Source: Verrucomicrobiota bacterium (GTDB lineage Bacteria; Verrucomicrobiota; Verrucomicrobiae; Limisphaerales; UBA11358). Taken from it: DNA of 21,193 nt. Positions 6,594 to 13,939 of the stretch are shown here, in pieces. Position numbers and translations under genes: made by a program. Below the pieces are notes generated by a model. The model did not search any database. It had not been told where the DNA came from and worked only from the letters and a program-made list of their open reading frames with translations. Where the stretch lies: positions 1-21,193 of the forward strand of contig JACZKP010000146.1 of assembly GCA_014860005.1 (NCBI GenBank). Direction: 5' to 3'. The stretch's first letter is position 1. The number at the start of each line of letters is the position of its first letter.

Positions 6594-7790
6594 TCACAGC
6601 AGATGTCCCATCTTCTCCCGCTTGGCTTTCAGGTAGCGCGCATTGTGCGGATTGGGTTTCACCTTGATCGGCACTTGCTCGATGATTTCCAAGCCGTAGC
6701 CCTCCAGCCCAACGATCTTTTTCGGGTTGTTCGTGAGCAGCCTTATTTTGCGCAGACCGAGGTCCGTCAGGATTTGCGCGCCCAGACCGTATTCCCGCAG
6801 ATCCATGCCGTAGCCGAGTTTTTGGTTTGCTTCCACCGTGTCGAATCCCTGCTCCTGCAATTTGTAAGCCTTGATCTTTGGCGCCAGCCCGATGCCGCGG
6901 CCCTCCTGCCGCATGTAAACAATCACGCCGCGTCCGGCCTCCGCCACCTGCCGCATCGCTTGATGCAGTTGCGGCCCGCAATCGCAGCGCCGCGAACCGA
7001 ACACGTCACCGGTCAGGCATTCGCTGTGGACGCGCACCAGCACGCCGGTCTTGCCGGCCACTTCGCCAAAAACGAGCGCGAGGTGATGCTGGTCGTCGAG
7101 CTTCGAGCGGTAAAGATACAGGTCAAACTCCCCGTAATCCGTCGGCATCTTCACCGCTTCGACGCGTTCCACGAGTTTCTCGCGCGTGCGGCGATGCTGG
7201 ATCAGGTCCGCCATCGTGCAAAGCTTCAGCCGATGCCGCTTCGCGAACTTTAACAACTCCGGCAGCCGCGCCATCGTCCCGTCATCATTCATGATCTCAC
7301 AGATCACACCGATGGGCCGGCAGCCGGCGAGCACGGTCAAATCCACCGCCGCTTCCGTGTGGCCGGCGCGCTGCAACACGCCGCCGGCCTTGGCGCGCAA
7401 CGGGAAGACGTGTCCCGGTTGCACCAGGTCATCCGGCACGGCAGTTGGCGACGCCATCAACTCGATGGTCCTCGCGCGGTCGGCGGCGCTGATGCCGGTG
7501 CTGATGCCGCGCGCCGCATCCACGCTCACCTGGAAATCCGTGGTGAACACCTCGCGGTTCTCCTTCACCATCCGGCCGATGCCGAGTTGCTGAAGCCGTT
7601 CGTTCGTGGTCGGCACACAGATCAGTCCGCGCCCGTGTTTCGCCATGAAATTGATCGCCGCCGACGTCACGTGCTGCCCGGCCATGATGAGGTCGCCCTC
7701 GTTCTCGCGATCCGCGTCGTCCACCACGATGACCATTTTCCCGCCGCGAATGTCCGCGATGACCGACTCGATGTTGTCGAACTTCTTCAT
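6594..7790 (-). CDS. ribBA: Bifunctional 3,4-dihydroxy-2-butanone 4-phosphate synthase / GTP cyclohydrolase II
   Basis: RibBA opens both branches of riboflavin synthesis: the RibB half makes DHBP from ribulose 5-phosphate, and the RibA half opens GTP. The 398-residue protein shows the RibB domain at about 1-200 with the acidic loop DDADRENEGDLIMA (24-37), HGRGLICVP (52-60) and GHTEAAVDL (143-151). The RibA domain at about 208-398 has zinc ligands in SECLTGDVFGSRRCDCG (C258, C269, C271), catalytic VYMRQEGRGIGL (291-302) and LLTNNPKK (351-358). The ATG at 7790 gives the normal N-terminus; a longer in-frame start would run back into larC. The start lies 4 bases after the larC stop, with GGAAAG about 8 bases upstream. 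No FMN riboswitch fits between larC and ribBA. Confidence 0.95.
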   Translation of the reverse strand: MKKFDNIESVIADIRGGKMVIVVDDADRENEGDLIMAGQHVTSAAINFMAKHGRGLICVPTTNERLQQLGIGRMVKENREVFTTDFQVSVDAARGISTGISAADRARTIELMASPTAVPDDLVQPGHVFPLRAKAGGVLQRAGHTEAAVDLTVLAGCRPIGVICEIMNDDGTMARLPELLKFAKRHRLKLCTMADLIQHRRTREKLVERVEAVKMPTDYGEFDLYLYRSKLDDQHHLALVFGEVAGKTGVLVRVHSECLTGDVFGSRRCDCGPQLHQAMRQVAEAGRGVIVYMRQEGRGIGLAPKIKAYKLQEQGFDTVEANQKLGYGMDLREYGLGAQILTDLGLRKIRLLTNNPKKIVGLEGYGLEIIEQVPIKVKPNPHNARYLKAKREKMGHLL

Positions 7791-7794
7791 GACT

Positions 7795-9201
7795 TCACTT
7801 TCCAATCCCCTTTGCCGCCGCCGCGTAAATTTGCCGGAGCGAAACTTTCTTTTGCGTCGCCAGTTTCCGGCACGACTCGTACTCCGGCGCGGCTTGAACG
7901 GTTTCTCCATTCAATGTGCCTAGCTTCACGCTGACGTTGCCGAACTTCGTTTTCACCGTCTTGAACTCACGCCGCAGTTTGCGCCGCTCCGCCATCGTTC
8001 GCCGCACCCCAAACGCGCTCGTCTCGCGCAGAATCATCTCGCTGAATTTGTCTGCTTCGCCCTCGGCGCACAACACCGTGAGTAGAACGCCGGGCCGGTT
8101 CTTCTTCATTTGGATGGGCGTGTGAAACACATCCAGCGCGCCTGCCGCAAGTGCGCGTTCGACAAAATCGCCCAGCACTTCACCACTGATGTCGTCGAGA
8201 TTGGTTTCGAGGACCGCAATGCGATCCGTTTCCCAATCGAGGCTGCGTAGGACAGGCGTCGCGCCTGTCTCTAATTTTGATCTTCCGCTTGAGCGGGAGT
8301 TTGAGACAAGCGCGACGCCTGTCCTACCCAACACCGCCCGCAACACATTCGGCCGCGTTTTGTTCTCGCGCGTGCCCAATCCAAAACCAATTTTTCCCGC
8401 CACGATCCCGCTCATCGGCCCGAACTCTTCGACCAACTCCGCCAGCAAGGCCGCGCCGGTGGGCGTGACGAGTTCATGTGGCTCGTCGCATTGCGTCACG
8501 CCGATGCCGCGAGCGCCGAGAATGGCCAGCGTCGCCGGAGCGGGAATGGGAAAACGGCCATGCGCGCAGCTCACCCAGCCCACCCCTTCCGTCACCGGTG
8601 CCGCCAGCACGCGCGGTTTGCCTAGCAATTCCAAACCAATGCACCCACCCACAATGTCCACGATGGAGTCCACCGCGCCGACCTCGTGGAAATGCACTTT
8701 GGCCGGCGGCATTCCGTGGATCTTGCCTTCCGCCTCAGCGATGCGCTGAAACACGGCGACCGCTTTCTTCTTCACCCACGGCGACAGTTTGCTCTTGCCG
8801 ATCAACTTCTTGATCTCGGCAAAGTTCCGACTGTCGTCGTGGTGATGTTCGTGCTCGTGCTCGTGCTCGTGCTGGCCGTGCGAATGTTCGTGCCCGCCGT
8901 GTTCGTGCAAGTGTTGATGACAACCTTCGCCCCCGTCGCAACGCTCGTGCTCAGGCGCGGGATAGTGGTGCGGGTGATGCTGGTCGTGATCGTGTTCGTG
9001 TTCATGCGCGAGATGCACGTCAAACTTCACTCCCGCGATGCCCTGGCGTTCCTGCCGTCCGATATGCAGGTGATAGCCATCCAGCTTGAGCTTCGCGAGT
9101 TCACGCTCCAGCTTGTGCGCGTCCACGCCCAGATCAATCAACGCGCCAATGAACATGTCGCCGCTGATGCCACTAAAGATGTCGAGGTAGAGTGTTTTCA
9201 T
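7795..9201 (-). CDS. larC: Nickel-pincer cofactor biosynthesis protein LarC (nickel chelatase)
   Basis: LarC inserts nickel into the thiocarboxylated nucleotide to complete the nickel-pincer (NPN) cofactor of lactate-racemase-type enzymes. The 468-residue protein is one continuous frame, unlike the frameshifted larC1/larC2 of Lactobacillus. Landmarks are MKTLYLDIFSGISGDMFIGA (1-20), KVHFHEVGAVDSIVDI (168-183), VTPTGAALL (245-253), LETNLDDISGE (331-341) and KKNRPGVLLTVL (366-377). Residues 64-121 form a His-rich loop with dozens of His and acidic residues, presumably nickel-binding. Residues 293-319 come from an in-frame palindromic repeat inserted exactly at the junction of the N- and C-terminal halves. 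The ATG at 9201 is preferred because it yields the family N-terminus; a GTG at 9213 adds four residues. No larA-like racemase is present in the window. Confidence 0.93.
   Translation of the reverse strand: MKTLYLDIFSGISGDMFIGALIDLGVDAHKLERELAKLKLDGYHLHIGRQERQGIAGVKFDVHLAHEHEHDHDQHHPHHYPAPEHERCDGGEGCHQHLHEHGGHEHSHGQHEHEHEHEHHHDDSRNFAEIKKLIGKSKLSPWVKKKAVAVFQRIAEAEGKIHGMPPAKVHFHEVGAVDSIVDIVGGCIGLELLGKPRVLAAPVTEGVGWVSCAHGRFPIPAPATLAILGARGIGVTQCDEPHELVTPTGAALLAELVEEFGPMSGIVAGKIGFGLGTRENKTRPNVLRAVLGRTGVALVSNSRSSGRSKLETGATPVLRSLDWETDRIAVLETNLDDISGEVLGDFVERALAAGALDVFHTPIQMKKNRPGVLLTVLCAEGEADKFSEMILRETSAFGVRRTMAERRKLRREFKTVKTKFGNVSVKLGTLNGETVQAAPEYESCRKLATQKKVSLRQIYAAAAKGIGK
8247..8327. repeat. 81-bp palindromic element inserted in frame in larC
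   Basis: Arms 8247-8271 and 8303-8327 are 25 bp each and complementary with one mismatch. The 31-base centre contains a second small palindrome, CCGCTTGAGCGG. Total length is 81 bp, exactly 27 codons, with no stop in the larC frame. It encodes RTGVALVSNSRS then SGRSKLETGATPVL between the conserved blocks NVLRAVLG and LDWETDRIAVLE. Normal LarC proteins pass directly from one block to the other, so this looks like a mobile or repetitive palindrome tolerated inside a protein. Confidence 0.85.
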
Positions 9202-9214
9202 TTCAACTGACACT

Positions 9215-13620: not shown

Positions 13621-13711
13621 CACTTCCTTGCGGCCTTTCGTATGTTCGCCGTCAAACTGCGCATTCCACCTTTGCCCGTTAAGCCGGAACGATGCGGTTG
13701 ACACGCCAGCA

Positions 13712-13844
13712 GGTGGCGGCGACGCCTCGTCGCCACGGGGTGAACGCGACGCCCCCGTCGCGGCGGCAACCTCATCAGGTTGTGCCGGGGAAGTGATCGA
13801 GGCGACGAGGCATCGCCACCACATTCAGGCGACGGGGCGTTGCC
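13712..13844. repeat. Cluster of four REP-like palindromes
   Basis: Four related GC-rich palindromic units of about 16 bp lie here. They are GCGACGCCTCGTCGC (13719-13733), GCGACGCCCCCGTCGC (13747-13762), GGCGACGAGGCATCGCC (13801-13817) and GCGACGGGGCGTTGC (13829-13843). The first and third are also inverted copies of each other, with GGTGGCG/CGCCACC extensions. A small ACCTCATCAGGT palindrome lies in the middle. The pattern, GCGACG-N(3-4)-CGTCGC, resembles bacterial REP elements and sits in the mqnA upstream region. Confidence 0.7.
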
Positions 13845-13939
13845 TCTACTCTCCCGCCGACCGCGTGAATTCGGTTAAGGCAATACTGGCTACTGGTTGC
13901 GGGCTTGGCTTGGAGTTGGTCCGGGCTTAAGCTGGGCTG

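Follow-up and report, generated by a model that had tools for sequence, protein, structure and literature searches.

An in-frame palindrome in a verrucomicrobial larC gene is very probably a REPIN

The larC gene in a 21,193-nt stretch of DNA from a Verrucomicrobiota bacterium (the whole stretch analyzed is called the window here) contains an 81-bp palindrome that stays open in the larC reading frame. What kind of element is this, and how did it come to lie inside a coding sequence? A preliminary description of the locus likened it to the palindromic elements of Rickettsia. We found two GTAG-tagged hairpins in its arms, an in-frame position within a hypervariable linker at a domain junction, and copies at the same site in two relatives, in one of which the arm also flanks a RAYT-like domain. 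On these observations, the larC palindrome is very probably a REPIN: two inverted GTAG-REP units, presumably moved by a RAYT (REP-associated tyrosine transposase), inserted in the LarC1/LarC2 linker with the frame kept, and probably translated and tolerated. The features are collected in Table 1.

Table 1. Positions of larC, the element and its parts (window coordinates), and of RAYT-like domains in two relatives, G001 and G002
Feature	Position	Strand	Details
larC (nickel pincer cofactor biosynthesis, Ni_insertion family)	7795..9213	-	Pfam PF01969, 469 bits; start GTG 9213 (472 codons) or ATG 9201
Very probable REPIN, head-head dimer of two GTAG-REP units	8247..8327	-	Repeat finder, translation, folding
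REP unit 1	8247..8271	+	GTAG tag 8247-8250; loop 8259-8261; tail 8270-8271; stem 8251-8258 pairs with 8262-8269
REP unit 2, inverted	8303..8327	-	Tag 8327-8324; loop 8315-8313; stem 8323-8316 pairs with 8312-8305; single mismatch versus unit 1
Spacer, 31 nt	8272..8302	-	Inner mini-hairpin CCGCTCAAGCGG
PF01797 domain	G001:C22:36161-36385		Between perfect arms at 35723 and 36520
L137	G001:C22:34500-38000		RAYT-like domain in helicase, DEAD and Helicase_C_2 matches either side
L140	G001:C148:18500-22500		RAYT-like domain in dnaE, between finger and HHH_6 domains
L150	G002:C323:6000-8600		RAYT-like domain in UDPGP-like gene

A repeat finder recovered the two 25-bp arms with one mismatch, just as first described, and they can be extended to 31 nt at 90% identity. 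Each arm forms its own hairpin, with a GTAG foot, an 8-bp stem, and a 3-nt loop, within the range for GTAG-REPs (stems of 5 to 13 bp and loops of 2 to 20 nt). The units are inverted with their tags outward, and the spacer between them falls within the usual 20 to 100 nt. Unit 1 matches the arm of a dispersed family exactly, and unit 2 differs from it by one change of the G-T/C-A type. We folded the larC strand of 8244-8330 as RNA and obtained -60.7 kcal/mol (z -10.5); none of 200 shuffles was as good. The predicted larC translation across the element is (G)RTGVALVSNSRSSGRSKLETGATPVL(R), residues 296 to 323, with 297 to 322 whole and 296 and 323 partial. Thus, the length of 27 codons and the open frame noted earlier hold, and the ends lie inside codons rather than on codon borders.

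Three of the six frames across the element are free of stops. Two of these are on the strand opposite larC; the opposite strand was first noted as open, and it was suggested that the element may be adapted to survive in either orientation. That part is unsupported, because the number of open frames in short dimers of this family ranges from 1 to 4 of 6 and because the TAG within GTAG always closes one phase in three. We found no further copy of the arm in the window. An Rfam scan of the window gave one match, unrelated to the larC palindrome: RF02820 (Vibrio RNA AS9; 59 bits) at 7587-7690, in the gene adjoining larC, where it likely reflects a conserved coding stretch. Elsewhere in the window are another GC-rich cluster of REP-like palindromes (13704-13846), probably intergenic, and, right at the edge of the record (1-103), a perfect inverted repeat whose 32-bp arms stand 39 nt apart; this repeat could be an assembly artifact.

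The preliminary description proposed a search of relatives for the arm, and copies were indeed present. Of 50 verrucomicrobial genomes, 16 contain an exact match to the 14-base arm end and 34 contain none. Counts were 88 in G001, 79 in G002, and 38 each in G004 and G007, with few or none elsewhere; the same string read backwards gave 3 matches in all. G001 and G002 are the two genomes whose larC carries the element. Both are draft MAGs, and it is from relatives, not from the window's own genome, that the dispersal and the RAYT bracket are known. The IS200-like transposase domain PF01797 is present in 11 of 12 genomes. Among 20 stretches around PF01797 matches, one (in G001) has perfect arms on both sides, pointing outward, and two more have GTGG variants of the arm on both sides. 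The same arm on both sides of the domain ties the family to a RAYT-like protein, in relative G001 only. This bracketed domain lies inside another gene, and its activity is only predicted. Counting this one (in L137), whole REP-bracketed RAYT-like domains were seen in open frame inside other genes at three loci (L137, L140, and L150). In G002, a RAYT-like gene stands directly before larC (L147:1309-1767, G002:C316), and partial matches to it stand just before larC in two other loci (L068:3892-4029 and L079:5798-5992).

These features bear on whether the palindrome is instead a true Rickettsia-type element, or another protein-coding MITE, unrelated to REP and RAYT. Rickettsia does have in-frame palindromes with a similar effect, according to the available part of a review (PMC10969869), and both the window element and the in-gene short dimers described below are palindromes in frame in protein-coding genes. 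However, GTAG tags, two hairpins, head-head dimers, and an arm around a RAYT-like domain define the GTAG-REP group in what is available of PMC3733652. We regard a Rickettsia-type or other MITE origin as the least probable of the readings considered here. The comparison drawn in the preliminary description is therefore partly supported: it appears right in kind, as an analogy to a repeated palindrome in frame inside a gene, and wrong in family, since the tags, the dimer, and the RAYT link are those of a REPIN. The observation behind it stands.

Why might the insert be tolerated at this place? The site is where LarC1 joins LarC2. Alignment with the solved C-terminal domain (6bwo) begins at residue 330, and alignment to the full-length LarC structure (12bi) stops at 258 and resumes at 266. 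The blocks on either side had been thought contiguous in other LarC proteins. Instead, relatives have a hypervariable linker: the segment between RPNVLRAVLG and DWETD was hypervariable both among the best 120 of 8,000 LarC homologues scored and among the 120 homologues listed for the linker region. With a mean pLDDT of 59, the AlphaFold model is too poor to be of use beyond its agreement with a flexible, disordered linker.

As anticipated, LarC orthologues with and without the insert both exist. A REP-type linker occurs in 37 of 262 LarC rows (proteins of at least 400 residues plus loci); three of the 37 have a DNA basis, namely the window, L001 (from G001), and L003 (from G002), and the others are proteins. 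L001 and L003 have palindromes of 87 and 81 bp at the same larC site, so the segment is not one that orthologues share without nucleotide palindromy, an outcome that the preliminary description had set against its own reading. The mini-hairpin CCGCTCAAGCGG also lies within both of their spacers. The three LarC proteins are 71 to 76% identical, yet one arm is identical in all three at 25 of 25 bases.

Among the matches listed, all REP-type LarC linkers are read in one phase, RTGVAPVS...ETGATPVL. This favors one old insertion, and larC itself is thus no proof of recent mobility. The single phase would also fit a peptide selected as a linker, with the palindrome a by-product of its codons. Against such selection, other genes read the same DNA in other phases, close LarC relatives have unrelated linkers, and the identity of the arm at this level of protein divergence exceeds what a peptide would need. 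We consider a selected peptide very improbable and continue with the REPIN reading.

To follow the linker through descent, we built a LarC tree with the linker cut out from 91 hand-chosen rows of the 262 (37 REP, 46 P rows, and 8 loci without). The REP or other state needs 12 changes on this tree, and its starred branches alone force 8. None of 500 label shuffles was as low (mean, 29.1), which indicates that the REP label is also clustered by descent. Supported sisters with unlike linkers include P0026 (REP) and P0025, P0013 (REP) and P0051, and P0028 plus L001 (both REP) and P0040. A FastTree of all 262 rows gave 22 changes; we prefer the smaller tree, which is better supported. The count of 12 is blind to gain versus loss, and one old insertion with many losses or replacements fits at least as well as repeated insertion; both fit. 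No clean empty larC site or target duplication is readable, because the linker differs in every relative. In P0169, a 424-residue LarC known as a protein sequence, the linker is GRTGVAPVLRHL; it looks like a REPIN dimer collapsed by a central deletion into the double-foot form.

We also read the linkers that are not of REP type. From 80 larC loci we obtained 69 linkers, 32 of them non-REP with at least 45 nt. These 32 had a mean self-match of 0.426 at lag 7 and 0.433 at lag 14, whereas the remaining lags between 4 and 13 gave 0.23 to 0.32. Of the 32, 20 beat codon shuffles at p <= 0.01. The peaks at lags 7 and 14 indicate that many larC linkers consist of 7-bp units in tandem, among them GTCCAAA and CTCAACC. 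The array AAAGTCCAAAGTCCAAAGTC, with at most one mismatch, was found in 18 of 28 genomes (6 matches in all for the backwards control). It was most frequent in G033, with 40 overlapping matches, whose own larC (L042) carries it. Between heptamer-rich genomes and a hand-labelled SKVQ-type larC linker, we found a weak link (23 of 28 genomes, p 0.02). Some larC genes have short linkers at the REPIN site. A search of the literature on heptamer repeats in these phyla, outside subscription journals and preprints, returned nothing on this element family or larC.

REPs are named for their extragenic position. In G001 and G002 we took all 120 elements with exact arms, comprising 75 short dimers (at most 100 bp), 23 long dimers, and 22 single units. 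An element with at least 150 bp on both sides was counted as in a gene if it lay in an open frame of at least 250 codons extending at least 40 codons to each side. By this test, 61 of 71 short dimers were in genes, as were 2 of 22 long dimers and 5 of 15 single units. For arbitrary DNA, the figure was 184 of 220 overlapping windows in 20 stretches that we chose at round coordinates on larger contigs, or 17 of 20 when each stretch counted once. An earlier control, with windows near larC from G001, G002, and the window, gave 556 of 900. The short dimers would look enriched against the 556/900 control but not against the 184/220 control; a preference for genes is unproven, and we make no claim of enrichment. 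Short dimers are not depleted in genes. The mostly extragenic placement that the name implies, and that structural definitions of REPs do not, was thus not seen, and the window copy itself is in larC. The long dimers with exact arms (128 to 170 bp) are nearly absent from long open frames, perhaps due to stops in the spacer.

The 61 in-gene short dimers occupy 59 frames. Pfam was run on 56, and 51 matched at E <= 0.001 (one below the curated cutoff); the remaining three comprise two larC genes and one frame paralogous to a scanned one. Named from their Pfam families, the hosts include mutS (two inserts), dnaE, uvrA, uvrB, uvrC, uvrD, ligA, valS, gatB, Glu/Gln-tRNA synthetase, ispG (GcpE), gcvP, and purL-like genes. 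The first base of the element falls in codon phase 0 in 34 cases and in phase 1 in the other 27. Phase 2, which would put TAG in frame, is excluded by the way the open-frame test is built. In other phases in other genes, the arm DNA is read as VGQASRLS, DRRDACPT, or RQARRLSY. Only 11 of the 61 have lengths divisible by three, so keeping the frame takes junction bases in addition to the element. We therefore rejected whole-codon length as a family trait or adaptation, since 50 of the 61 depart from it.

G001 and G002 have inserts at the same site in five genes: NADH-quinone oxidoreductase/Mrp-type antiporter, larC, valS, gatB, and Glu/Gln-tRNA synthetase. U32 peptidase and alpha-2-macroglobulin were candidates that we dropped, as their inserts are at different places. 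Across the five pairs, 237 of 250 arm bases are identical. Spacers of equal length are identical at 30 of 39, 17 of 29, 22 of 28, and 10 of 21 positions, and fourfold-degenerate sites in the five genes at 0.49 to 0.65. The spacers have diverged about as the genes have, whereas the arms have scarcely changed. Two causes could account for this: rewriting of the arms from other copies, or constraint on them as DNA. Within the arms, a count over 1,200 stem pairs gave 4 paired double changes, 1 broken double change, and 44 one-sided changes.

Such conserved arms raise the question of whether the palindrome works for larC, as an mRNA hairpin at the domain boundary that slows translation or (de)stabilizes the message. 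The fold (z -10.5), the identity of same-site arms against that of fourfold-degenerate sites, and the four arm pairs that changed on both sides and still pair are what such a hairpin might leave. However, the arms are near-identical in unrelated genes too, so the cause is not specific to larC. Moreover, the hairpin is absent from several close LarC relatives, the site in other larC genes holds short linkers or 7-bp repeats without structure, and compensation is sparse, with 4 paired double changes against 44 one-sided ones. A role for the hairpin in larC is improbable, and we return to the REPIN as a tolerated insert.

We compared the gatB and Glu/Gln-tRNA synthetase sites of G001 and G002 with those of ten other genomes. 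At the gatB site, the REP family recurs in G007, where the spacer is related; a second GTAG palindrome, GTAGCAGCCGACGTGAGTCGGCT, occupies the site in G003 and G033, and G004 has a decayed one. Linkers of other kinds are present in G052, G006, and G054, and G055 has no insert (G005 is uncovered here, and the G051 row is unaligned). The palindrome GTAGCAGCCGACGTGAGTCGGCT is dispersed too: 23 of 28 genomes have it, with a maximum of 94 copies, and the backwards control gave none. At the synthetase site, G051, G033, and G052 have 7-bp arrays, G054 has a short linker, and the insert is absent in G003, G004, G005, and G055 (the G006 piece ends short of the site). G007 there has a dimer with a variant stem common to both arms. 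This variant has 14 copies in G007 and occurs once each in 2 of 11 other genomes searched, so both arms match the stock of their own genome. In a check for target-site duplication, the empty sites of the two genes reached no base-by-base alignment.

Tolerance alone can explain such recurrent sites, if lineages fill a few permissive places with their own repeats. The concerted arms at diverged sites suggest an added process of rewriting. A bolder possibility, which we offer tentatively and rather doubt, is that housekeeping genes in these Verrucomicrobiota have recurrent docks at domain boundaries, where whole cassettes (REPINs of this family, REPINs of a second GTAG family, or 7-bp tandem arrays) would be actively exchanged by RAYT insertion and by gene conversion that rewrites both arms together, each genome tending to use its own current stock. 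If so, translated REPINs would be a continuing source of interdomain linkers and not rare surviving accidents.

For larC, we propose the following course. A REPIN, a non-autonomous element presumably moved as single-stranded DNA by a RAYT, would have entered the stretch that codes for the LarC1/LarC2 linker by transposition. With the frame kept and no stop in that phase, about 27 extra residues would be translated. The insert may have survived through a linker tolerant of changes in length and sequence, by tolerance rather than benefit. Later it would have been inherited in some lineages and lost and replaced in others, with its arms probably kept up by exchange with other genomic copies.

Intragenic GTAG REPs are already published; what is new is a REPIN class that is not depleted in genes and that lies at sites common to unrelated repeats. 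That such elements lie in genes about as often as arbitrary DNA does, core genes for replication, repair, and translation included, means that selfish DNA can routinely supply protein segments in a group of free-living bacteria. The recurrent sites with unrelated repeats amount to natural replicate experiments on insertion-tolerant loops of essential enzymes, and the same-site pairs, with diverged spacers and near-identical arms, make the upkeep of REP arms directly testable. Searches of the literature on intragenic REPs and REPINs, outside subscription journals and preprints, gave nothing on this family or larC, and one on Larb/larC gave nothing useful.

The comparisons that follow hold for the available parts of the sources. 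GTAG-REPs are described as having a GTAG tag, a short stem-loop, inverted dimers, 20- to 100-nt spacers, and RAYT association (Di Nocera 2013, PMC3733652), and the family found here shares the tag, stem-loop, head-head dimer, and RAYT association. Intragenic REPs are known from the same work, most for GTAG in the verrucomicrobium O. terrae, including uvrA and DNA ligase, and flexible linkers are proposed there as the cause of tolerance. In contrast to those REPs, which are mostly intergenic, the short dimers in G001 and G002 are not depleted in genes, and their sites hold other repeats in other species; that part of PMC3733652 mentions neither larC nor this arm. Our elements resemble REPINs in that the unit is an inverted, hairpin-forming pair of REPs (Bertels and Rainey 2011, PMC3116915). 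In P. fluorescens SBW25, however, of 1,067 occurrences only 14 16-mers overlap genes (PMC3116915), whereas 61 of 71 short doublets in G001 and G002 are in long frames. In-frame REP insertions are described in tnpA-REP genes of subclass 2.4, along with a double-foot REP that can arise via central deletion of a dimer (PMC6006769). Our REPs are likewise in frame, and the LarC linker of P0169 suggests the double-foot form, but the hosts are larC and other housekeeping genes instead of a transposase. Finally, the Rickettsia palindromic elements are likewise scattered through unrelated genes as in-frame palindromes that are, or could be, translated (PMC10969869). The Rickettsia elements are about 150 bp long and belong to other sequence families, with no RAYT link described in the available part of that review; it is by anatomy and the RAYT link, not by sequence comparison, that we set the two apart.
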